Assembly (NCBI GenBank): GCA_035624455.1
Contig: DASPRM010000166.1
Location: 1 to 63,374 of the forward strand
Length of the DNA: 63,374 bases
Direction of reading: 5' to 3'
Source: Terriglobales bacterium
Lineage (GTDB): Bacteria > Acidobacteriota > Terriglobia > Terriglobales > Acidobacteriaceae
The notes under the pieces are model-generated. The model ran no database searches and was not told the origin of the DNA. It saw only the letters and a list, made by a program, of their open reading frames with translations. The translations under genes were made by a program, and so were the position numbers. Below, in pieces: positions 1,255-13,745 of the stretch. Position 1 is the stretch's first letter. Every line of letters starts with the position of its first letter.

Positions 1255-1578
1255 CTGAGAGCCTCCGTTTCGGCTCCAGCAAGGATGAGCGCGGCGTCCC
1301 GAATGTGCTGTGAGGAGGGTCACGATAATGGTTTGATGATTGTCCGACCCTGAAGTCGACCCGTAGATGTTCTAATCAGAATGTTGTTGAAGGTTCATTT
1401 CCGGGCCGCTGAATGTTGAACCGCGAGTGCTGAAGGCGTGCGCCGGGCTCCAAAGCACTTTCCCCTTTTGGGCTCCTTCCGTCCGCCGAACGCACGGGCA
1501 ATTTTCACAATCGAATATAAGCTTCACTTCCGATTCAAGCTGTTATTGTCAATGTCGATGTTGAATTAGGAAGTGCGC
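1255..1578. other. Divergent intergenic region
   Basis: This 324-base region separates the divergent methyltransferase and small membrane ORF. It contains the GGAGG ribosome binding site of the methyltransferase (1262-1266) and a CRP-like palindrome at 1309-1324. A TATAAG at about 1526 could be a -10 box for the rightward gene, but I see no convincing -35. No conserved reading frame is visible. Confidence 0.5.
1309..1324. promoter_or_regulatory. CRP/FNR-like palindrome upstream of methyltransferase
   Basis: TGTGAGGAGGGTCACG matches the CRP-family pattern TGTGA-N6-TCACA at nine of ten positions and is centred about 62 bases upstream of the methyltransferase start. It overlaps the longer GTG-started version of that frame, which is another reason to prefer the shorter start. 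Confidence 0.4.
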
Positions 1579-1860
1579 ATGGCTACCCAGAGCAGTAGCT
1601 CAGGTATTGGAGCATCATCTAAGGCGCGCGCCAAGATTCTGATGATGCCTCACCTGGAGCCCTATTGCACTTCGCCCAAGCCGCCTGCCGGTCTCTGGAT
1701 TTCGCGCTGGCGCAGAAACTCGCGCCGGCCATTTGCATGCATAGCAACTCGCCGGCTCAAGCAGCGAGCTCGCGCGCTCTGGAAGACGGCGCTGATCACC
1801 ATGATTTTCTGGCTAGCGCTCTCCTGGCTGGCGGTACGAGTACTGTTGGGCGGTTTGTAA
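1579..1860 (+). CDS. Small hypothetical membrane protein
   Basis: I do not recognise this 93-residue protein. It has a polar, arginine-rich body and one hydrophobic segment at the extreme C-terminus (about residues 70-91), which suggests a tail-anchored or single-span inner membrane protein. The ATG at 1579 follows an AGGA; a GTG two codons earlier is the alternative. A clear intrinsic terminator begins 50 bases after the stop, which is the main reason to accept the gene. A minus-strand frame of 135 residues overlaps it but has no start signal or recognisable features. Confidence 0.45.
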   Translation: MATQSSSSGIGASSKARAKILMMPHLEPYCTSPKPPAGLWISRWRRNSRRPFACIATRRLKQRARALWKTALITMIFWLALSWLAVRVLLGGL

Positions 1861-1910
1861 CAGGGCAGGGCTCGCAATCGAGTGTAACCTCCTGATGATG
1901 TCCTGACTTC

Positions 1911-1943
1911 CGGCGGTGGACTCACCCACCGCCGCTTTTTGTT
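1911..1943 (+). terminator. Rho-independent terminator
   Basis: A perfect nine-base stem (CGGCGGTGG with CCACCGCCG), a six-base loop and a following CTTTTTGTTT tract make a textbook intrinsic terminator for the small ORF ending at 1860. Confidence 0.85.
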
Positions 1944-2111
1944 TGAGCTCACTTTGCCGCTGCCTCGCCCCCAACGGGATCCCTCTAGTAGCCGCAATCC
2001 TGTTGAAACTCTCATCATCTGAGCTCCAAACTGCTGCCTTATCTTGTCAAGAACTTCATCAGTCCCCATGTCCTAGATCACCGAGCTGATGAACAATTCA
2101 TCACCCTGAAA

Positions 2112-2127
2112 AGTGAGCATTATCACA
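2112..2127. promoter_or_regulatory. CRP/FNR-like palindrome upstream of the cytochrome operon
   Basis: AGTGAGCATTATCACA matches TGTGA-N6-TCACA at nine of ten positions. It lies 145 bases before the cytochrome c start, in the only sizeable gap ahead of the redox/two-component operon. Confidence 0.45.
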
Positions 2128-2271
2128 GCCCTGCCTCTCCATCTCATAGAAACTCCTACTCGAGAGCGCACTGTGCACCGGTCCGAACTCCAGGCCCCAT
2201 CAGCATGAGTCAGGCGCCGGCGGCCCAGGCCATCTTGATTTGGCCCGTCATACCAGAAGGAGAGCATTCCT

Positions 2272-2580
2272 ATGAAATTCGCAAAGCTCACGATCGCGAT
2301 TCTGGCGATCGCGTTGGCCCTGTTCCTCATCTTGCCCAACCTGTCTTGGGCGGAAGATGGCGCCGCCGTATACAAGGCGAAATGTGCTGCCTGCCATGGC
2401 CCAGCCGGGGAAGGTAAAGTCGGACCGGCAATAAAAGGCACTAAACTCACCGACCAACAAATCGTGGACCTGCTCACAAAGGGGGAAGCAGGCAAGAAGG
2501 CCCCCCATGCCAAAGCAGTTAATGGCCTTACCGAAGATCAGGCGAAAGCGGCTGCCAGCTTCGTTAAGGACCTGAAGTAA
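2272..2580 (+). CDS. Exported mono-heme c-type cytochrome
   Basis: This 102-residue protein starts with a signal peptide (hydrophobic residues 6-24, cleavage likely after SWA at 27) and carries one heme-c motif, C38-A-A-C41-H42, in the context AAVYKAKCAACHGPAGEGKVGP typical of small class I cytochromes. It should be a periplasmic electron carrier. There is no methionine after residue 1, so the usual methionine axial ligand is absent; H79 in GKKAPHAK sits about where that ligand is expected and could give bis-histidine coordination. A strong ribosome binding site precedes the ATG. It is the first gene of the redox operon and may exchange electrons with the ferredoxin/NrfD pair or load the heme sensor kinase downstream. 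Confidence 0.88.
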   Translation: MKFAKLTIAILAIALALFLILPNLSWAEDGAAVYKAKCAACHGPAGEGKVGPAIKGTKLTDQQIVDLLTKGEAGKKAPHAKAVNGLTEDQAKAAASFVKDLK

Positions 2581-3671: not shown

Positions 3672-4840
3672 AGTTCAAGATTACCTTTTGGAAAATCGTA
3701 TTCGTTGCGCTCATGCTGGCGGGCGCCTATGCCACTCTCATCCGCTTCACTCGCGGACTAGGCCCGTCAACCAATCTCAGTGACCAGTTTCCCTGGGGCA
3801 TATGGATTGGCTTCGACGTCCTCTGTGGCGTGATGCTGGCCGCCGGCGGTTTCACCTTAACCGCCGCCGTGCATATCCTTCACATCAAGCGTCTTCATCC
3901 CATCGTCCGGCCCACAATTCTTACCGCATTCCTCGGATATGTTCTCGTCTGCGTAGCGCTGCTGTTTGATCTGGGCCGCCCCTACAACATCTGGCATCCG
4001 CTCATCATGCGCAACCCCCACTCCGTGATGTTCGAGGTCGCCTACTGCGTCATGCTGTACACCACGGTTCTCACACTCGAATTCTCACCCATCGTCCTCG
4101 AGCGCCTGGGGTGGCAGAAGCCGCTCAAGATTATTCGCACAGCCCTGATCCCACTGGTGATCTTTGGCGTCATCCTCTCGACGTTGCACCAGTCATCACT
4201 CGGCACCCTCTACCTCATCATGCCCACTAAGCTTCATCTTTTCTGGTACAGCCCGCTGCTGCCCGTCTTCTTCTTCCTCTCCGCGATCGCGGTCGGGCTA
4301 GCCATGACCATCTTCGAATCCTCCATGAGCTCGAAACATTTCGGTCGTGAGCTGGAACTGCCCATCCTGCAGGAATTGGGACGCGTGCTCCTGGTGGTGC
4401 TAACTGTATACGGCATCCTGCGCTTCGAGGATCTGCTCCATCGCGGCGTTCTCAAACTGCTTTTGACCTCCGGTTATGAACGCAATCTCTTCCTGCTGGA
4501 AATCGGCCTCAGCGTGGTCGTTCCTGTCATCCTGCTTGTCTTTAAGAACATCCGCAACTCCGCAGGTGGGCTTTACTTGACCGCCGTTCTTGTTGTCCTC
4601 GGATTCATTACCAACCGCCTCAATGTCAGCATCACCGGCATGGAAACTGCCGCCGGCTTGCATTACATCCCCAAGTGGACGGAGGTGGCTATCACTGGCG
4701 CCATCATTGCCGCAGGATTTTTTCTGTTTGCGATGGCCGTGAAGTACTTACCCATCTTCTCCGAGCACCAGACTGCGGAAAGGCCGTCCGAAGTGCCGGT
4801 GCTGGTGAAAGCAACGGTCTTGAGCCATGCCGGAGACTGA
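3668..4840 (+). CDS. NrfD/HybB-family quinone-interacting membrane subunit
   Basis: This 390-residue polytopic protein has about ten hydrophobic helices and resembles HybB/NrfD/PsrC, which couple quinone chemistry in the membrane to a ferredoxin subunit. The segment GPSTNLSDQFPWGIWIGFDVLCGVM in the first loop and the LGRPYNIWHPL motif are typical of the HybB branch. Translation begins at a GTG whose last two bases overlap the TGA of the ferredoxin gene. With that gene it should form a membrane module that oxidises or reduces quinone. The 3' end overlaps the sensor kinase start by 14 bases, so module and sensor are likely made together. Confidence 0.9.
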   Translation: MKFKITFWKIVFVALMLAGAYATLIRFTRGLGPSTNLSDQFPWGIWIGFDVLCGVMLAAGGFTLTAAVHILHIKRLHPIVRPTILTAFLGYVLVCVALLFDLGRPYNIWHPLIMRNPHSVMFEVAYCVMLYTTVLTLEFSPIVLERLGWQKPLKIIRTALIPLVIFGVILSTLHQSSLGTLYLIMPTKLHLFWYSPLLPVFFFLSAIAVGLAMTIFESSMSSKHFGRELELPILQELGRVLLVVLTVYGILRFEDLLHRGVLKLLLTSGYERNLFLLEIGLSVVVPVILLVFKNIRNSAGGLYLTAVLVVLGFITNRLNVSITGMETAAGLHYIPKWTEVAITGAIIAAGFFLFAMAVKYLPIFSEHQTAERPSEVPVLVKATVLSHAGD

Positions 4841-6518
4841 TCAACTCGATGCTGCCGAATCATATGCTGCGCCATCGCACCTCTGGCGTTTCCGTCGCCT
4901 GAGCCGCAGCCTCAGCACTAAGCTGATTGTCCTGTTGCTCGCGGCCATGATCGTCACCTTCGCTCTCCTCGGCTACGTCAACATCCGCCTCCACCGCCGT
5001 CATCTGGAAAGCGCTACTCTCGCCGCTGCTGAACGCATGAGCGACACAATGAAGCGCAGCGCCTCCTATCACATGATGCGCAACGACCGCCAGGCATTGT
5101 ACGAGCTCATCAATACGATCGCGCGCGAGCCTGGAATCCTTCGCATTCGCATCATCAATGAAACCGGCAACATCAGTTTTTCCAGCGATACCAGCGAAGT
5201 TGGGAACCGGGTCAATACCCAGGCCGAAGCCTGCACCGGTTGCCATGCCCAGGCGCAGCCACTCACACGTCTGAATCGGCCTGATCGTTTTCGCATCTAC
5301 CGCGCCGATGGTTCCAGGATTCTTGGAATCATCACCCCGATTGAAAACGCTCCCGCGTGTAGCAACGCCCAATGCCACGCCCATCCCGAGAGCCAGAAGA
5401 TTCTGGGAGTGCTCGACACCAACCTGTCGCTCGCGCGCGCGGACTCTGCTCTCGCCGAAAGCACACGCCAGATGCTCGCTTACACGGCATTCGCCGTGCT
5501 ATTCATCGCAGCCCTTACCGCTTTATTCGTGTGGCGCGTACTTGCTCGGCCAGTAAAAGCCCTGACCTCCGGTACGGAGAAGCTGGCCGAGGGTGAACTG
5601 GGATACCAAATCGCTATCGATTCCTCTGACGAACTGGGGGATCTGGCCCGCTCGTTCAACGACATGAGCCTACAACTGCGTTCCGCCCACGAAGAGATTA
5701 CCTCCTGGGCACGCACTCTGGAAGAGCGTGTCGCTGACAAAACCCGCGAGCTCAAGAATGCCCACGAGCAGATCCTGCACGCGGAGAAAATGGCGTCTCT
5801 CGGCAAGATGGCTGCCGTTCTGGCGCACGAGATCAACAATCCCCTCTCCGGCATTCTCACCTACGCCAAGCTGCTCCGGCGCTGGATCGACCGCGTCCAA
5901 ATTGAAGAGAGCCGCCACAAAGAAATCCAAGAATGCCTTAGCCTGATCGAGAGCGAAAGTCGCCGCTGCGGAGACTTGGTGAAGAATCTGCTTACCTTTT
6001 CCCGCACCGCGCCGCTTAACATCGCGCAGGGCAATCTGAATTCCGTTGTCGAGCGCGCCCTGAAACTGGTTCAGCATCAGCTCGACATGGCGGGCATTCA
6101 ACTTCAGACCGATCTGGCTGAAGATCTTCCTACAATCGCTTGCGATCAGGCGCAGATCGAGCAGGTCCTCCTGGCTTTGATCATGAACGCGCACGACGCC
6201 ATGCCGCGGGGCGGCAATCTGTGGGTGCGCACCCGCTACTTGCCGCAAAGCCAGCAGGTGGAGATTCAGGTGCGTGACGATGGCGTTGGAATTCCCAAGG
6301 ATTTGCTTCCGCAACTCTTCGAACCGTTTTTCACCACTAAGGAAACTGGTAAGAGCGTAGGTCTCGGGCTCGCTATCAGTCACAGCATTATCGAGCGCCA
6401 TCATGGTGTGATCGAAGTGGAGTCCGAACCCGGGAAAGGAACTACTTTCTACATTTTCATGCCGGCAGATGCCAAAGCTGCATCGCCTAGCTCTGCCCTG
6501 GCAGCCACATCGAGGTAA
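4827..6518 (+). CDS. Membrane sensor histidine kinase with two c-type heme motifs
   Basis: The 563-residue protein has two membrane segments (about 31-51 and 217-239) bracketing a periplasmic domain of roughly 165 residues. That domain contains two heme-c attachment motifs, C136-T-G-C139-H140 and C178-x4-C183-H184, so the sensor probably binds covalent heme and responds to redox state or a gaseous ligand. A HAMP domain (about 236-290) and a coiled coil lead to HisKA, with the phospho-acceptor H334 in VLAHEINNPLSG, and a HATPase domain with DDGVGIPKDLLPQLFEPFFTT and GLGLAI. It overlaps the NrfD-like gene and is followed five bases later by its response regulator. The ligand is unknown. Confidence 0.92.
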   Translation: MPETDQLDAAESYAAPSHLWRFRRLSRSLSTKLIVLLLAAMIVTFALLGYVNIRLHRRHLESATLAAAERMSDTMKRSASYHMMRNDRQALYELINTIAREPGILRIRIINETGNISFSSDTSEVGNRVNTQAEACTGCHAQAQPLTRLNRPDRFRIYRADGSRILGIITPIENAPACSNAQCHAHPESQKILGVLDTNLSLARADSALAESTRQMLAYTAFAVLFIAALTALFVWRVLARPVKALTSGTEKLAEGELGYQIAIDSSDELGDLARSFNDMSLQLRSAHEEITSWARTLEERVADKTRELKNAHEQILHAEKMASLGKMAAVLAHEINNPLSGILTYAKLLRRWIDRVQIEESRHKEIQECLSLIESESRRCGDLVKNLLTFSRTAPLNIAQGNLNSVVERALKLVQHQLDMAGIQLQTDLAEDLPTIACDQAQIEQVLLALIMNAHDAMPRGGNLWVRTRYLPQSQQVEIQVRDDGVGIPKDLLPQLFEPFFTTKETGKSVGLGLAISHSIIERHHGVIEVESEPGKGTTFYIFMPADAKAASPSSALAATSR

Positions 6519-6523
6519 CTGCA

Positions 6524-7882
6524 ATGGAAGGCAAAGGGAAAATTCTGATCGTTGACGACGAACTCAGCGTACGTGACTCGCTTAACAAATGGTTCCGCGA
6601 AGAAGGCTACGAAGTCGGAACCGCCGAGAACGCCAGCGAAGCTCTCTCCCGCATGGCGGAACAATCCTGGGACGTATCGCTGGTGGACATCAAAATGCGC
6701 GGCACCGACGGCATCGAGCTGCAGCGCCGCATGCACGAAATCGATCCCGAACTGATCTGCATCATCATGACCGGCTACGCTTCCGTCGAAACTGCGGTCG
6801 CCGCTCTTAAGAATGGCGCTTATGATTACGTCACTAAACCGCTCGATCCGGACGAGATCGCTCACACCGTAGCCAAAGCTCTCTCCCACCGTCGCACCCA
6901 GGAGGAGAATGTTCGCTTGCGGGAGGTAGTCGCTGAAACCGCCATTCCTTCTGACCTGGTTGGACAGAGCGCGGCCATGAAGCGCGTATTCGAGGCCATT
7001 GAGACTGTGGCGCCCACCGACGTCACCGTGCTCATTAACGGCGAAAGCGGCACGGGCAAGGAACTGGTTGCTCGAGCCATCCATGCTGCCAGCCCGCGCC
7101 GCTTTCACCCGCTCGTCGTGCTCCACTGCGGTGCGCTGACAGAAACTCTGCTGGAAAGCGAGCTGTTTGGGCATGAGAAAGGAGCCTTCACCGGCGCCCA
7201 GTATCGCAAGAAAGGCAAGTTTGAGATCGCCGAGGGCGGTACGATTTTTCTCGACGAAATCGGCGACATCAGCTTAAAAACCCAAACTGATCTCCTGCGC
7301 GTACTGCAGGAACGCGAGATCGTACGGGTGGGGGGGAATCAGCCCATCCATGTCGATTTCCGCTGTGTTGCCGCAACTAACAAGAAGCTTGAAGACCTGA
7401 TCGACGAAGGAAAATTCCGGCCCGACCTCTTCTATCGCTTGAACGTGTTTCGCATCGAGCTGCCTCCGCTTCGTGATCGTAAGGAAGATATTCCGCTGCT
7501 GGTAAATCACTTCACCAAGAAGTTCTCATTACAGATGAACAAACGAATCAACCGCGTAGCACCCCCGGCGATGGATCTGCTGCAGCAATACGAATGGCCC
7601 GGCAACGTCCGTGAACTCGAAAATGCGGTTGAACGCGCTATGGTCGTTGCGCAGGAGCCCGAACTACGCGAGCAGGACTTCATCCTCCATTCCAAAACCG
7701 CACCCGAGCCCCCGGAGGCGAAGACGTTGGAGGCTATGGAGCGGATCCACATATTGCGTGTTTTGGAAGAGTGCGGCTGGAACCAGACGCGCACTGCCGA
7801 AGTGCTCAACATCGACCGCGTTACCTTGCACAACAAACTCAAGAAGTATGGATGGAGCCGCGGTGCTCTCGTTGAAAAATAA
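6524..7882 (+). CDS. NtrC-family sigma-54-dependent response regulator
   Basis: The 452-residue regulator contains a receiver domain with phospho-acceptor D55 (VSLVDIKMRGTDG), an AAA+ domain with Walker A GESGTGKE and the sigma-54 contacting loop GAFTGAQ, Walker B GTIFLDEIGD, and a Fis-type helix-turn-helix at the C-terminus (NQTRTAEVLNIDRVTLHNKLKKYG). It should activate sigma-54 promoters when phosphorylated by the adjacent heme kinase. GAGG eight bases upstream supports the ATG. Its targets are not evident: no convincing -24/-12 promoter was found by eye in the nearby intergenic regions. Confidence 0.95.
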   Translation: MEGKGKILIVDDELSVRDSLNKWFREEGYEVGTAENASEALSRMAEQSWDVSLVDIKMRGTDGIELQRRMHEIDPELICIIMTGYASVETAVAALKNGAYDYVTKPLDPDEIAHTVAKALSHRRTQEENVRLREVVAETAIPSDLVGQSAAMKRVFEAIETVAPTDVTVLINGESGTGKELVARAIHAASPRRFHPLVVLHCGALTETLLESELFGHEKGAFTGAQYRKKGKFEIAEGGTIFLDEIGDISLKTQTDLLRVLQEREIVRVGGNQPIHVDFRCVAATNKKLEDLIDEGKFRPDLFYRLNVFRIELPPLRDRKEDIPLLVNHFTKKFSLQMNKRINRVAPPAMDLLQQYEWPGNVRELENAVERAMVVAQEPELREQDFILHSKTAPEPPEAKTLEAMERIHILRVLEECGWNQTRTAEVLNIDRVTLHNKLKKYGWSRGALVEK

Positions 7883-8428
7883 ATGAAGCGCTTGCAACTG
7901 CTCGCGGTAGGCGAACTCGAGGGGCGCGTGCTGGAAGGCTTAGCTGTCCAGCTCGCCCACCATTTCGCCACTCCTTGTCAGGTGCTGACCACTACCTTGG
8001 ATCCGAAATTTGCCTTTCATTCCGAGCGCGGCCAGTATCACTCCAGCGAGATTCTCGCTTGCGTTCAGCATCACGTGAACAGCAACACTTGGCGTTTGCT
8101 CGCCGTTACCGACGTTGACCTCTACATCCCCATCCTCACCTTCGTTTTCGGTGAGGCACAGATGGGCGGCTTTTGTGCTCTCATTTCCACTCACCGGCTG
8201 CGCCAGGAGTTCTACGGCCTTCCTCCCGACCTCGATCTTCTGCATACCCGCATGCTGAAGGAGGCGGTCCACGAATTGGGCCACACCTTGGAATTGACCC
8301 ATTGCGACGATTACCGCTGCGCGATGGCCGGTTCACATGCGGTGGAATGGATCGATTTGAAAGAGAACTCGTTTTGCCGATCCTGCGCCAACCGCGTGCT
8401 GGAACTCGTGGGGCACGGTCCCCGATAG
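7883..8428 (+). CDS. Archaemetzincin-like zinc protease
   Basis: This 181-residue protein carries the archaemetzincin zinc signature: H130-E131-L-G-H134, H140, then C141, C146, M148 and a C165-R-S-C168 pair, following the family layout HExxHxxGxxHCx4CxM...CxxC. It is therefore a small, probably cytoplasmic metallopeptidase with a catalytic zinc and a second structural zinc. The usual glycine between the histidines is replaced by E137, which is uncommon and may affect the turn that brings in the third histidine. The ATG follows the response regulator stop with no gap, so it belongs to the same operon and may be an effector or regulator of that system. No signal peptide is seen. Confidence 0.85.
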   Translation: MKRLQLLAVGELEGRVLEGLAVQLAHHFATPCQVLTTTLDPKFAFHSERGQYHSSEILACVQHHVNSNTWRLLAVTDVDLYIPILTFVFGEAQMGGFCALISTHRLRQEFYGLPPDLDLLHTRMLKEAVHELGHTLELTHCDDYRCAMAGSHAVEWIDLKENSFCRSCANRVLELVGHGPR

Positions 8429-9309: not shown

Positions 9310-10113
9310 CTAAGCCTTCGCAAAGATTCGTCCCAGGAAGCCCTTCTTTTTCACAGGCGCAAAGTGCAACGCCTGCAGCAATGATTCGATTTCCTGCTCG
9401 GAGAGCGGCGGCGTGTCCTTCCGCAGTCGAATCATCTCCTGAAAAGAAGTGAAGCGGTCGATGCAATAGAAGCAGTCGCGGATGTGCTCCTCCGCCAACT
9501 CCCGTTCCCGCCAGGAGACCTGGCCATTGATGAGGTTGTTGAACGTTTTGAGTGGAAGGCAATGTTCAGTTCGGGTCTTTTCCGCCGCCTCAATAAGCAC
9601 GCGTGCAGACACGTTAAACGCCTGCGCCGTGGCGCCAGGGAGCACTTGCCCCAGTTTTTGCTGCGCCATTTCCTTCACCGCATTCGCGGTAGCCTCTGCG
9701 TTCATCATGATCGGTGCGATCTGCGGGGCTGTGTACCCTTTTACGAAGAGCCATAGGATTTCCTGCTCGACCACGTTGAGCTTGCGCATGATCTCGCGCA
9801 TCTGATCGAGCGAAATCTCCGGAGCCGGAATCCGCGAATTGGCGCGGCCATAGGCGAAAACCAACTGGCGGAACTCCATCATGAACTCGCGTTCATTCTG
9901 AAATTTAAAGCTCCGGAACCAGGCATTTCCGTCCTTCTGTGCGCTCTCGAAGACGCCTTGGATATGGCTACCGATCTCGGGAGAGAGCGAAGGAAAGTAG
10001 TGGCTTAGCAGCAAGCGCGAAATTGGCGCATAGTCTCGGACGAACTCATGCCAACCCGTACGCTGCCCGTCGGCGCACTCCTCCACCATCAGAAAAATTG
10101 TTCGGATTGCCAT
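9310..10113 (-). CDS. Sigma-like factor fused to a zinc anti-sigma (ZAS) motif
   Basis: The 267-residue protein appears to combine two roles. Residues about 20-90 (GWHEFVRDYAPISRLLLSHYF onward) resemble an ECF sigma region 2, and residues 102-155 (MREIMRKLNVVEQEILWLFVKGYTAPQIAPIM) look like sigma region 4, a DNA-binding helix-turn-helix. The C-terminal part then carries H210-IRD-C214-FY-C217, the HxxxCxxC pattern of zinc-binding anti-sigma domains, within AEEHIRDCFYCIDRF. Normally these functions sit in two adjacent genes. There is no transmembrane segment. No separate anti-sigma gene is next to it. Region 2 is weakly conserved, so it might be a regulatory sigma relative rather than a working sigma factor. 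Confidence 0.6.
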   Translation of the reverse strand: MAIRTIFLMVEECADGQRTGWHEFVRDYAPISRLLLSHYFPSLSPEIGSHIQGVFESAQKDGNAWFRSFKFQNEREFMMEFRQLVFAYGRANSRIPAPEISLDQMREIMRKLNVVEQEILWLFVKGYTAPQIAPIMMNAEATANAVKEMAQQKLGQVLPGATAQAFNVSARVLIEAAEKTRTEHCLPLKTFNNLINGQVSWRERELAEEHIRDCFYCIDRFTSFQEMIRLRKDTPPLSEQEIESLLQALHFAPVKKKGFLGRIFAKA

Positions 10114-10250
10114 ACCGGATGCGTCGTGGCGACTGCCGTTCCAGTCTAGCAGAAGGAATACCTGCGCAGGGTAAGTTGCGACCTACTTACTCATGACGCT
10201 TCTATCTGCTTGCAGATCGTTCGCATCGCAGACGCAGCGAAGATCATCTT

Positions 10251-10955
10251 TCAGCGGTGTAGCTTGGCCTCGTCCAGCGTCAGGGCCCGCTGCAACACCA
10301 TCTGCACGCTGGTTCCTTCTGGCAACAGGATATCGTTGCCTCTGGTCAACATTGCGATTGCCAATCCGGTTGCTGCCCCGGCAGCCCCGCCAATCCCCAC
10401 GCCCTTTCCCGTGCCGCCGCTCGCGAGACCACCGATGACCGCGCCAGTCGCTGCGGTCTGGGCAACCTGCGCGGCGTCCTTCCCCTTTGAGGAATTCTGC
10501 TGAATGGTGCCCTCTTCTCCCTTTACGTGTTGGTTTTCCGCTCCCGGCACATTTTCCACTGCTCCCGGCAACATCGTGGTATAGCCGCTGGGAAATACCA
10601 GGCTGGTGAAATGCATCAATACTTCTGCGCGTCCTTTAACGCGGCCCGGCCTCTTCACCTCCGTGATCCGACCCTGAACGTAAGTCCCGGCAGGAATGAT
10701 CACGCGGTCATTCCCCGTAATAGGGAAAGTTGTCTCAGCATAAACCGCATCGCCCACCTTGACGCTCTTTGTGGAGATTCCCTGCTTCAAATGCAGGGGG
10801 ATTTGCGTGCCTGCAGGAAGGGTGACCTTGCCCTCGCTGAAAATCGGCGAAAGATTGGTTCCGTGCGCGAATGGGTCTGTGTTGGACAGCGGCTCTTGCG
10901 CCATAGCCGCGCACACCAGAACGGAAAGTAGTGACACCAACTTTAGAGCACGCAT
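10251..10955 (-). CDS. Exported glycine-zipper protein (TrbI-like)
   Basis: The 234-residue protein begins with a signal peptide (MRALKLVSLLSVLVCAAMAQ). The middle (about 43-115), with LPAGTQIPLHLKQGISTKSVKVGDAVYAET and IPAGTYVQGRITEVKRPGR, resembles the beta-barrel repeats of TrbI/VirB10-like proteins. Residues about 165-205 form a glycine/alanine-rich zipper (ATGAVIGGLASGG...GGAAGAATGLAIAML). Similar stand-alone proteins are frequent in Acidobacteriota; the function is unknown and no conjugation genes are nearby. GGAGGAG ten bases upstream supports the start. It lies just upstream of the sigma-like gene on the same strand and could share a transcript. Confidence 0.7.
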   Translation of the reverse strand: MRALKLVSLLSVLVCAAMAQEPLSNTDPFAHGTNLSPIFSEGKVTLPAGTQIPLHLKQGISTKSVKVGDAVYAETTFPITGNDRVIIPAGTYVQGRITEVKRPGRVKGRAEVLMHFTSLVFPSGYTTMLPGAVENVPGAENQHVKGEEGTIQQNSSKGKDAAQVAQTAATGAVIGGLASGGTGKGVGIGGAAGAATGLAIAMLTRGNDILLPEGTSVQMVLQRALTLDEAKLHR

Positions 10956-11231: not shown

Positions 11232-13622
11232 TTAGTAAATCAGATACTTCTTCTTCAATTTCACAAACTCATCCAGTTCATCTCGCCAGCCTTCCGTGAT
11301 AATCCGTGGATCCTCATTCGCCAGCAGCGCGTTAAATGCCGACTGATTGCCCAACAGCTCGATCATCCGATCCAGTTGGAACTGAGACGGATAAAGCTTG
11401 CGCAAGGCCGACGCTAGCTCAATCCCCAATTCCGTCGGATCAAAGAAATTCCGATCCACCACTACAATGTTCACCCCGCCGCACAATTGGTTGGCGTAAT
11501 TGCTGGATATCGGCGTAAAGCTCACCGGCACGAAACGCACCCCCTGGATCATGCGGCCATTGAGATACGCAGCCAGTTCGGTTGGCTTGATCCAGGGTGC
11601 TCCAACCACCTCAAAGGGAGTGCCCGTCCCTCGGCCGACGGATATGTTGGTCCCCTCAACCAAACCCACCCCAGGATAGAGCGTGGCTTCAGTCAGGCTG
11701 CGCATATTCGGCGAGAGATTCACCCAAGACAAGCCTGTGGAATCGAACCAGTCTCCCCGCATCCATCCGTTCATGGGAACGATCCTCAGCCGAGCTCCGA
11801 TGCTTCGTTCCGAATTGAAAAGCTTGGCCAGTTCCCCGACCGTCATCCCATGGCGCACAGGCAAAGGGTGATAGTCCACAAAGGCGCCGCGCTGCAGAGT
11901 GGAGATCGGCCCTTGTACAAATGCCCCAGTGATTGGATTGGGACGATCGAGCACGATCAGATCAATTCCCGCTTTGGCCACACCCTCCAGGAAATAACCC
12001 AGCGTGGTCTCATAGGTATAAAAGCGCACGCCGACATCCTGAATATCGTAGATAACCGCATCCAGATTCTTCAGTACCGCAGGATCGGGGCGTCGTTTAG
12101 CGTCGCTGTCCCCATAAACGCTATACACCGTAATCCCGGTAGCACTGTCGCGTGTATTGCCGATTTGCGCGGTATCCAATCCTCCTGTGACGCCGTGTTC
12201 AGGGCTGAAAATCGCGACCAGTTCCACTCCCGGAGCATGCGCGAGCACATCGATCGTTCGCCGCCCGCTGGAATCGACGCCGGTCTGGTTCGTGACGAGA
12301 CCGATCCGGGTTTTGTGGCTGTCTTTCGATTGCAGCTCTTGGAAGTTGTGCGATTCCAGAACATCAATGCCGGTCTTGACCATTCCATTGCGAAACATCA
12401 CGCGGTGGGCTGCGCTCAAGGTCTCGTTGTATCCAGTAATCTGCCGCAGCCGCACTTGTTCGCTTTCTGACGGTGTCAGTTTCAGCGCCGTCGCCACCGC
12501 AGTCGCCACCCGCGACCGTAAGGAGACGATGGAGTTTTGTCCCCGTGGGTGCACCGAGTTCGCCAGAATGATGATGTAGGTGTTGGTTGATGGGTCAATC
12601 CAGAGCGAAGTTCCGGTGAATCCGGTATGACCAAATGATCCTACTGGCAAAAACTCACCACGGGTGGTGGAAAAAGGCGAATCGATGTCCCAACCCAATC
12701 CTCGCAACGAGCTCGCTGTCGGCGGTTGCTGAGGTGTGCTCATCTTTTCGACGCTGAGAGCGGAAAGGATGGGAGCTCCGCCGTCCAGAAGCGCCTGCGC
12801 ATAGCGCGCGACGTCATCGGCCGTCGAAAACAATCCAGCATGTCCGGCTACTCCGCCCATCCTGCGCGCGGTAGGGTCGTGCACCACCCCACGCAGCATG
12901 ACTCCGCGTTCATCATATTCCGTGGCTGCAATTATCGGCCGCCATGCCGCAGGTGGTGTGAAATCGGTGTGCTCCAGACCCAGCGGTTTAAAGATGTTCG
13001 TGGTCGCATAGGCATCCAGGGAAAAGCCCGACACCCGGCGAACTATCTCTCCCAACACGATGTAGTTGATGTCGCTGTAAAGGAACCGCGAGCCCGGCGG
13101 ATAGACTGGGGTCTCTTCCATCGCCATGCGGACGGCAGTGTCATATCCCTCCCAGTGCTGCTTCAGGTCAAGATCTTCGGCCAGCCCGGAGAAATGCGTC
13201 AGCAATTGGCGCACCGTGATGTCCTGTTTCCCGTTCATCCCAAACTCAGGAATGTATCGCGTGACCGGATCATTCAGTCGAATCTGCCCCTTCTCCAGCA
13301 GTTGCATGCTGGCAGTGGCAGTGACCATGCATTTGGTGAGGGAGGCAACGTCAAAGATCGTGTCGGCGGTCATGGGCTCGCGCGTGGGTTCCAGACTGCG
13401 AAACCCGAACGCCTTCCGGTAAATCACGCTGTGATCATGGCCAATCAGGACCACTGCGCCGGGAGGCTTTTGTTCTGCAATCGCCTTCTCCAAGATTTCG
13501 TCAACTGCGGCAAGACTTGGCTGCTGCGCAAGGAGTGGACAACTCAGGACCAGCAGGATCTGCGAGAGGAGCAGTCTGATGGAGAAAGAACGAAACTTCG
13601 ACAACTTCCGGAATGGGCGCAT
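11232..13622 (-). CDS. Secreted serine hydrolase (class C beta-lactamase fold) fused to NamZ/DUF1343 domain
   Basis: The 796-residue protein has a signal sequence (about 1-34), then a beta-lactamase/esterase domain with catalytic S94-L-T-K97, Y182-S-D and H332-T-G motifs. From about residue 439 to the end is a DUF1343 domain, the exo-beta-N-acetylmuramidase family typified by NamZ, with NQTG, SPEHGVTGG, YDIQDVGVRFYTY, DRPNP, RHGMTVGEL and NMRSL motifs. In Bacillus subtilis the equivalent functions are separate genes (ybbE and ybbC/namZ) in the MurNAc recycling cluster. Here they are one polypeptide, presumably trimming peptidoglycan fragments outside the cytoplasm. ATG 13622 gives the best signal peptide; a TTG 57 bases upstream is the alternative. 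Confidence 0.88.
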   Translation of the reverse strand: MRPFRKLSKFRSFSIRLLLSQILLVLSCPLLAQQPSLAAVDEILEKAIAEQKPPGAVVLIGHDHSVIYRKAFGFRSLEPTREPMTADTIFDVASLTKCMVTATASMQLLEKGQIRLNDPVTRYIPEFGMNGKQDITVRQLLTHFSGLAEDLDLKQHWEGYDTAVRMAMEETPVYPPGSRFLYSDINYIVLGEIVRRVSGFSLDAYATTNIFKPLGLEHTDFTPPAAWRPIIAATEYDERGVMLRGVVHDPTARRMGGVAGHAGLFSTADDVARYAQALLDGGAPILSALSVEKMSTPQQPPTASSLRGLGWDIDSPFSTTRGEFLPVGSFGHTGFTGTSLWIDPSTNTYIIILANSVHPRGQNSIVSLRSRVATAVATALKLTPSESEQVRLRQITGYNETLSAAHRVMFRNGMVKTGIDVLESHNFQELQSKDSHKTRIGLVTNQTGVDSSGRRTIDVLAHAPGVELVAIFSPEHGVTGGLDTAQIGNTRDSATGITVYSVYGDSDAKRRPDPAVLKNLDAVIYDIQDVGVRFYTYETTLGYFLEGVAKAGIDLIVLDRPNPITGAFVQGPISTLQRGAFVDYHPLPVRHGMTVGELAKLFNSERSIGARLRIVPMNGWMRGDWFDSTGLSWVNLSPNMRSLTEATLYPGVGLVEGTNISVGRGTGTPFEVVGAPWIKPTELAAYLNGRMIQGVRFVPVSFTPISSNYANQLCGGVNIVVVDRNFFDPTELGIELASALRKLYPSQFQLDRMIELLGNQSAFNALLANEDPRIITEGWRDELDEFVKLKKKYLIY

Positions 13623-13745
13623 TCTGGACTCGGATGGCAAGTGCAACGCGAATGTACAAGAGGCAGAGGGCACCCGCAAGACGCGAAGGTTTAGCCCCTG
13701 TTGTCATGCTGATGACCCAGGATGGGCGGAAGAACGCGCGAGCTA

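Follow-up and report, generated by a model that had tools for sequence, protein, structure and literature searches.

The window, i.e. the whole stretch of 63,374 nucleotides that was analysed, carries on its minus strand at 9310..10113 a gene for a protein of 267 amino acids (P0001; ATG at 10113, stop codon 9310-9312), in which sequence profiles and the predicted fold delimit a sigma region 2-like part (residues 1-92), a sigma region 4-like part (residues 102-157) and a zinc anti-sigma (ZAS) domain (residues 185-233). The original prediction, which gave no strand, had read this gene as a single protein joining sigma-like regions to a zinc anti-sigma motif, and the present analysis bears this out. 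The upstream neighbour (10251..10955, minus strand) encodes a TrbI-like protein (E 2.3e-5, below the Pfam cut-off) with a signal-peptide-like start and a Gly-rich segment; at 11232-13679 on the same strand follows an 815-aa protein that, from a reading of its sequence alone, looks like a beta-lactamase-type hydrolase with a second domain. On the other side of the gene, a histidine kinase (4827-6518, plus strand) with the motifs CTGCH and CSNAQCH in its sensor part, which we take to be suggestive of c-type haem binding, is followed by a sigma-54-type response regulator (6524-7882), and this two-component system is adjoined by an M54 (archaemetzincin-type) peptidase (7883-8428, plus strand).

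Relatives of P0001 were found by sequence search in 19 of 200 genomes sampled from its taxonomic family and, within the class, in 64 of 399 genomes at E<=0.001 with the single sequence as query; the profile search detected the fusion family in 60 of the 399 class genomes at E<=1e-8, with one fusion gene per genome if split matches are set aside, so that the conserved architecture in Acidobacteriota, which had been suggested as a check, is there. Profile matches were obtained in 125 of 396 genomes of a phylum sample at E<=0.001, most of those listed spanning part of the profile only; two distant family members were recognised among them (L049, E 2.2e-29; L050, E 1.4e-14), neither of which gave a Pfam match. 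Judging from these comparisons, the fusion is a genuine, conserved Acidobacteriota protein family that occurs in scattered members of the phylum. From 46 loci, 37 proteins were aligned (alignment A1, P0001 being L003), the class members with unfetched loci staying outside it; loci left out were L009 and L011 (located on the contigs of L001 and L002), the partial L021, L022, L024 and L036, and L020 (326 aa, two in-frame insertions) with its gene pieces L023 and L025. Invariant in all 37 members are C185, H210, C214, C217, G197, W201 and E226 as well as E74 and F77, and R82 of the sigma2-like domain is kept in 36. The mean information content is highest in the ZAS domain (2.68 bits; sigma2 2.29, sigma4 2.19), and the sequence conservation indicates that the sigma-like part, too, is still under constraint. 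A decaying pseudogene is ruled out by the intact reading frames throughout the alignment together with the presence of E74 and F77 in 37/37, and a sequencing or frameshift artefact by the intact single ORF across many genomes. A plasmid-borne gene was likewise rejected, the plasmid collection having given no match to the fusion gene. No description of the family was found in the open-licence PMC literature.

Taken as single sequence, P0001 is hardly recognisable as a sigma factor. Its Pfam matches to GerE (E 0.0078) and Sigma70_r4_2 (E 0.069) were both below the cut-off, no NCBIfam family was matched, and the comparison with the PDB gave one chain (E 1.2); when the own genome was searched at E<=0.001, the PF04542 and PF13490 profiles both missed the fusion gene. 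Among the 37 members, Sigma70_r4_2 was matched in eight at E<=10 (best E 0.0029) and the sigma70-ECF family in seven at E<=1; Sigma70_r2 was absent from the 20 families reported at E<=10. The relationship emerged from the comparison of profiles: hhalign aligned A1 with 19 ECF sigma factors (alignment A2) over 163 columns of regions 2 and 4 (probability 96.8, E 2.6e-10), and the A2 profile directly picked up 5 of 23 family members (best E 1e-5), P0001 not being recovered. A2 was composed of 15 of the 19 Sigma70_r2 matches of the own genome plus L051, L053, L054 and L060; L095 (primary sigma factor), L108 (cut by the contig end), L111 and L113 were left out. It is a small set, and four of its ECFs were chosen because they matched A1.

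The AF2 full model is all-helical (mean pLDDT 90.9, pTM 0.88), with helices in a sigma2-like (6-92) and a sigma4-like part (102-157), a linking helix (165-179), the ZAS domain (188-233) and two further helices at the C-terminus. In the structure comparison of the full model, the best 25 rows from Foldseek comprised sigma factors (mostly ECFs), PhyR and, as the last of them, VpsT, an HTH regulator; E was 0.028 or worse throughout, and no row reached E 0.001. VIA superimposed region 2 on region 2 of sigmaE in 2map (Z 9.5, rmsd 5.1, 94 aligned) and on sigmaE in 6jbq (Z 8.8, rmsd 2.1, 82 aligned), and region 4 on SigF in 8jzt (Z 5.6, rmsd 2.3, 62 aligned); PhyR did not appear in the 50 rows that VIA gave for this model, which carries no weight either way. 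Middling Z values are common for helical models, so what counts for the fold is that the top rows agree with the profile comparison. According to model and alignment, P0001 has the sigma2 and sigma4 domain folds of ECF sigma factors: the region 2-like domain at 9838..10113 (minus strand; AF2 model, VIA, hhalign with ECFs), the region 4-like domain at 9643..9810 (minus strand; AF2 model, Sigma70_r4_2 matches, VIA) and between them a linker of nine residues (93-101; 9811..9837, minus strand; AF2 model, alignment). The region 4-like helices had been predicted at about residues 102-155 and are placed at 102-157 by AF2 and the alignment. Region 2 had been left open, and its absence had been named as what would refute the fusion; since both the profile comparison and the fold reveal it, that objection does not apply.

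The ZAS domain (9415..9561, minus strand) is identified by matches to zf-HC2 (18/37 members at E<=10, best E 9.9e-7) and to TIGR03988 antisig_RsrA (17/37 at E<=1, best E 1.8e-4) and by its fold matches to ChrR, RsiW and RslA. Comparison of A1 with 13 ZAS-motif proteins (alignment A3) by hhalign gave a probability of 74 (E 2.8e-5, columns 180-236); the ZAS profile detected 3 of 23 family members (best E 0.0038), P0001 not being one of them. The HxxxCxxC motif noted earlier at H210, C214 and C217 proved to be present in 37/37 members, and a fourth ligand that the original prediction had missed, C185, completes the putative zinc motif C185-x24-H210-x3-C214-x2-C217 in all of them. The proposed ligands are encoded on the minus strand at 9559..9561 (Cys185), 9484..9486 (His210), 9472..9474 (Cys214) and 9463..9465 (Cys217). 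Since the motif is invariant and Cys185 is equally invariant at a fixed spacing of 24 residues, HxxxCxxC is not a chance occurrence; an incidental Cys/His pattern in a helix-turn-helix protein is ruled out by this conservation, by the ECF profile comparison and by the fold of the C-terminal part. When the C-terminal 107 residues were modelled separately (pLDDT 90.1, pTM 0.69) and compared with 350,542 chains, ChrR, RsiW and RslA took the top 11 of the 30 rows from Foldseek, none of them with E below 0.48, and anti-sigma factors the first seven of nine VIA rows, led by ChrR with a middling Z of 7.7 (rmsd 11.1, 71 aligned) and including RsiW and RslA (Z 5.5). The models thus point to a three-helix anti-sigma fold; a further helix after this core (residues 239-248; 9370..9399, minus strand) may possibly be equivalent to helix 4 of anti-sigma factors, and the C-terminus of the protein lies 50 residues past C217. 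The CHCC site would be expected to bind zinc. P0001 contains exactly four cysteines, the fourth being Cys13 of the sigma2-like domain (10075..10077, minus strand), which is kept in 36/37 members compared with 2/19 canonical ECFs. A redox or zinc switch, as originally suggested, may be possible. The distant member L050 (1432-2127) has lost all four ligands and kept E74, F77, Y127, G197, W201 and E226, so that zinc is not needed in every relative.

The fold of a sigma factor is accompanied in this family by the loss of much of what a sigma factor turns towards RNA polymerase and DNA. The Gln of region 2.2 (Gln52) is found in 2/37 members compared with 18/19 ECFs, and the nearby Ala47 and Asp49 in 1/37 each (ECFs: 18/19 and 15/19); Trp76 is present in 5/37 versus 18/19, Asn83 of region 2.4 in 1/37 versus 17/19, and the Gly, Lys and Ser of the GTVKS motif (positions 141/144/145) in 1/37, 2/37 and 0/37 versus 13/19, 12/19 and 13/19. 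Part of the ECF pattern is kept (Tyr28 in 35/37, Arg90 in 23/37, Leu112 in 26/37, Arg117 in 21/37, Thr142 in 26/37, Ala150 in 31/37). The mean net charge of the recognition helix is +0.6 (-2 to +3) in the family and +4.1 (+1 to +7) in the ECFs, that of the 2.3-2.4 helix -0.5 versus +3.05, with overlapping ranges, and that of whole sigma4 -1.2 versus +2.7. The linker between sigma2 and sigma4 comprises 7-14 residues in the family and 17-36 in the ECFs, without overlap of the ranges. Two sigma-like proteins of the own genome (L111, L113) have linkers of 24-25 residues and kept Gln52 and Arg149; both are without Asn83 and one of them is without Trp76, which makes these two positions the weaker marks, as neither is absolute in sigma factors. 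The linker of SigH runs through the active-site cleft of RNA polymerase, and its deletion or replacement by disordered sequence abolished transcription, which the linkers of other ECFs partly restored (PMC6411747). By analogy, a linker of nine residues, even if not a deletion, is unlikely to do the job of the SigH linker. As far as sequence comparison tells, the RNA polymerase- and DNA-facing signatures of regions 2.2, 2.3-2.4 and 4.2 are mostly lost; weak binding of DNA or RNA polymerase may persist, since the charge ranges overlap and some ECF residues remain. In consequence of the lost signatures and of the lost long linker, the self-inhibited working sigma factor that had been envisaged has become doubtful.

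In ordinary ECF systems, as the original prediction had pointed out, the ZAS domain belongs to a separate anti-sigma factor; the fusion of a sigma factor with a zinc anti-sigma domain nevertheless has precedents. In ECF48, ECF52 and ECF53, an ECF and a zinc-finger domain, likely ZAS, reside in one polypeptide, and proteolytic release has been proposed for them (PMC8999054, PMC5826349). Like the P0001 family, these proteins, e.g. SCO4117 (ECF52), which has been studied as a sigma factor (PMC5826349, PMC8999054), carry sigma domains followed by a zinc-finger domain in one chain; unlike it, they are actinobacterial, with one or two transmembrane helices in extensions of up to 400 residues, whereas the P0001 family is soluble, belongs to Acidobacteriota and has a degenerate sigma part. 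Hydropathy gave no indication of a membrane helix, as predicted earlier (highest 19-residue mean 1.6 across the 37 members, 1.14 in P0001), which rules out a membrane-anchored ECF52-like protein. ECF243 (IutY) and some ECF36 proteins are sigma/anti-sigma fusions as well, but with membrane parts, and in CorE-type ECF238 the ECF is followed by a C-terminal cysteine-rich regulatory domain as in the P0001 family (PMC8999054); CorE, however, is a sigma factor that depends on copper and has a CXC motif between sigma2 and sigma4, within the linker, in contrast to the ZAS domain and the very short linker of P0001.

With respect to its metal site, the family resembles RsrA, ChrR, RslA and RsiW, which share HxxxCxxC and a fourth ligand upstream of it (PMC4598750). 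According to the models, the ZAS domain of P0001 has the three-helix fold of ChrR, RslA and RsiW; its proposed ligands, three Cys and one His, are those of RsrA, which is also without a membrane helix. These anti-sigma factors are, however, separate proteins that inhibit a separate sigma factor, whereas the ZAS domain of P0001 is fused behind a sigma-like module. In RsrA, disulfide formation and zinc loss release the sigma factor, but for the majority of ZAS domains the role of zinc is considered to be structural only (PMC4598750). The degenerate sigma part finds its counterpart in PhyR, whose ECF-like domain, degenerate in the promoter and core-RNAP regions, titrates an anti-sigma factor (PMC8103513, PMC4598750). 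PhyR and the P0001 family share a degenerate ECF-like sigma2-sigma4 module with a fused regulatory domain, which is a phosphorylated receiver in the former and a zinc anti-sigma domain in the latter. A PhyR family match was weak and restricted to 2/37 members (best E 0.02), and no Response_reg match, i.e. no receiver domain, was obtained among the 37.

Upstream of the fusion gene, an extended -10-like element (TGCTAGACT; 10143..10151, minus strand) is located 38 nt before the start codon. Its pattern TGnTAnnnT, which we take to be an extended -10 of the housekeeping type, was chosen post hoc and without a chance control; of 17 close orthologues, 12 have it at no more than 45 nt from the start, and it is missing in five (L001, L012, L013, L017 and L008), in the first four of which the fusion gene may be co-transcribed with a TrbI-like gene close upstream. 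A look for a conserved promoter ahead of the orthologues had been suggested; the ECF-type pattern (GAAC, 14-18 nt, GTC), the one pattern tried and run without a positive control, was found within 160 nt upstream in 0/17, and the extended -10-like element appeared in its place. By tblastn, 14 of the 17 close orthologues have the TrbI-like gene upstream of the fusion gene and in the same orientation; it was not found in L004, L008 and L007, the contig of the last leaving about 0.7 kb upstream.

In 23 stretches surrounding family members, no ECF or ZAS gene adjoined the fusion gene, and another ECF-like gene was present in three (L090, 3 kb off and with a ZAS gene; L078, 6 kb; L094, 7 kb). ORF clustering of these stretches, which undercounts because the target ORF was dropped in L079, L080, L081 and L085, revealed no class-wide operon partner and few neighbours common to different taxonomic families: an aldehyde dehydrogenase gene lies near the fusion gene in L075, L089 and L093, and ORF clusters 1 and 9 also recur beside it across families. 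The Pfam scan of neighbours covered 15 proteins. In the more distant L091 (8756-10588) and L092 (8682-10556), the next gene encodes TPR repeats with a weak DUF1223/Omp28 match and is a possible operon partner.

The genomic arrangement of ordinary ECF genes is informative on the origin of the family. Among its matches in the phylum sample, the A1 profile spans six separate, ordinary sigma and ZAS gene pairs across the intervening stop codons (L051, L053, L054, L060, L062 and L067), three of which (L051, L053, L060) are confirmed by Pfam as such pairs, and at 10 of the 19 Sigma70_r2 loci of the own genome an ORF with HxxxCxxC directly follows the sigma gene. An ECF gene followed by a ZAS gene is the order to be expected if the family arose by the fusion of such a pair. 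Probably, then, an ECF gene became joined to the ZAS gene that is often its next neighbour, and the sigma part would afterwards have lost its ability to start transcription.

Taking these features together, P0001 is best read as a soluble fusion of a degenerate ECF sigma factor with a complete ZAS domain of the RsrA/ChrR type that would act as a PhyR-like sigma mimic, i.e. by switching of protein-protein contacts and not in transcription start, a reading to which we assign a probability of about 0.5. The anatomy of the protein is well supported; the partner, the signal and the direction of the switch are what we infer. In the closed state, the ZAS and the sigma-like domains would hold each other; the signal that opens the protein would plausibly be that the Cys3-His zinc site is lost or oxidised, perhaps together with Cys13 of sigma2; the freed face of either the sigma-like or the ZAS domain could then bind an anti-sigma or else a true sigma factor as its partner, and this binding would alter a different ECF pathway, much as PhyR does. 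A more specific version is tentative and in our estimation rather doubtful: a one-protein zinc/thiol-gated switch, in which a dead ECF decoy would be locked by its own anti-sigma domain and released by oxidation of Cys13 and Cys185/214/217, redox replacing phosphorylation in exposing the PhyR-like mimic.

Three other functions have to be weighed against the sigma mimic. That P0001 is a soluble zinc anti-sigma factor whose sigma-like part is a plug, displaced by a real ECF which the ZAS domain then sequesters, would agree with the ZAS domain being both the segment of highest conservation (2.68 bits; sigma2 2.29, sigma4 2.19) and the one with the fold closest to known anti-sigmas, but E74 and F77 (37/37) and R82 (36/37) roughly equal the zinc ligands in conservation, beyond the needs of a plug, and none of the 23 stretches offers an adjoining ECF gene; we regard this function as unlikely. 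Improbable in our view is a genuine ECF sigma factor carrying its own ZAS inhibitor, which upon oxidation or zinc loss would join RNA polymerase and transcribe a stress regulon: against the largely lost signatures of regions 2.2, 2.3-2.4 and 4.2, the short linker, the SigH protein that is dead without its linker (PMC6411747) and the 0/17 upstream regions with the one ECF promoter pattern tried stand the presence of all three domains, the CHCC motif with antisig_RsrA in 17/37 at E<=1, and the fused SCO4117 having been studied as a sigma factor (PMC5826349, PMC8999054).

More improbable still is a cytoplasmic DNA-binding regulator under zinc or thiol control that would use the sigma4 helix-turn-helix only. 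The GerE/LuxR HTH is indeed the best single-sequence match (E 0.0078), and HTH response regulators occur among the fold matches of region 4, but the low mean charges, both of the recognition helix (+0.6 versus +4.1) and of sigma4 (-1.2 versus +2.7 in the ECFs), do not favor such a role.

Compared with ECF48/52/53, the family is new in being soluble, degenerate and from Acidobacteriota; fused sigma-ZAS proteins as such were already known. PhyR is the best-known sigma factor turned decoy. If the sigma-mimic reading is true, P0001 would represent a second decoy family, in another phylum and with a metal-thiol clamp attached to the decoy, and adjacent sigma/anti-sigma gene pairs could collapse into one post-translational switch without any further contact to RNA polymerase. 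As a caution, the transcription competence of fused sigma-like proteins should be checked before they are counted as sigma factors.

A separate observation concerns the family member L020, whose gene (1492-2472, minus strand; 326 aa) contains two in-frame insertions holding a 50-nt repeat (1861-1910 and 2221-2270). The two repeats are 94% alike and have a palindromic core; the 19-nt core was found in 10 copies (<=1 mismatch) in the genome of L020, compared with 0 in three relatives and 0 in a reversed control. The repeat is a REP-like element within a coding gene.
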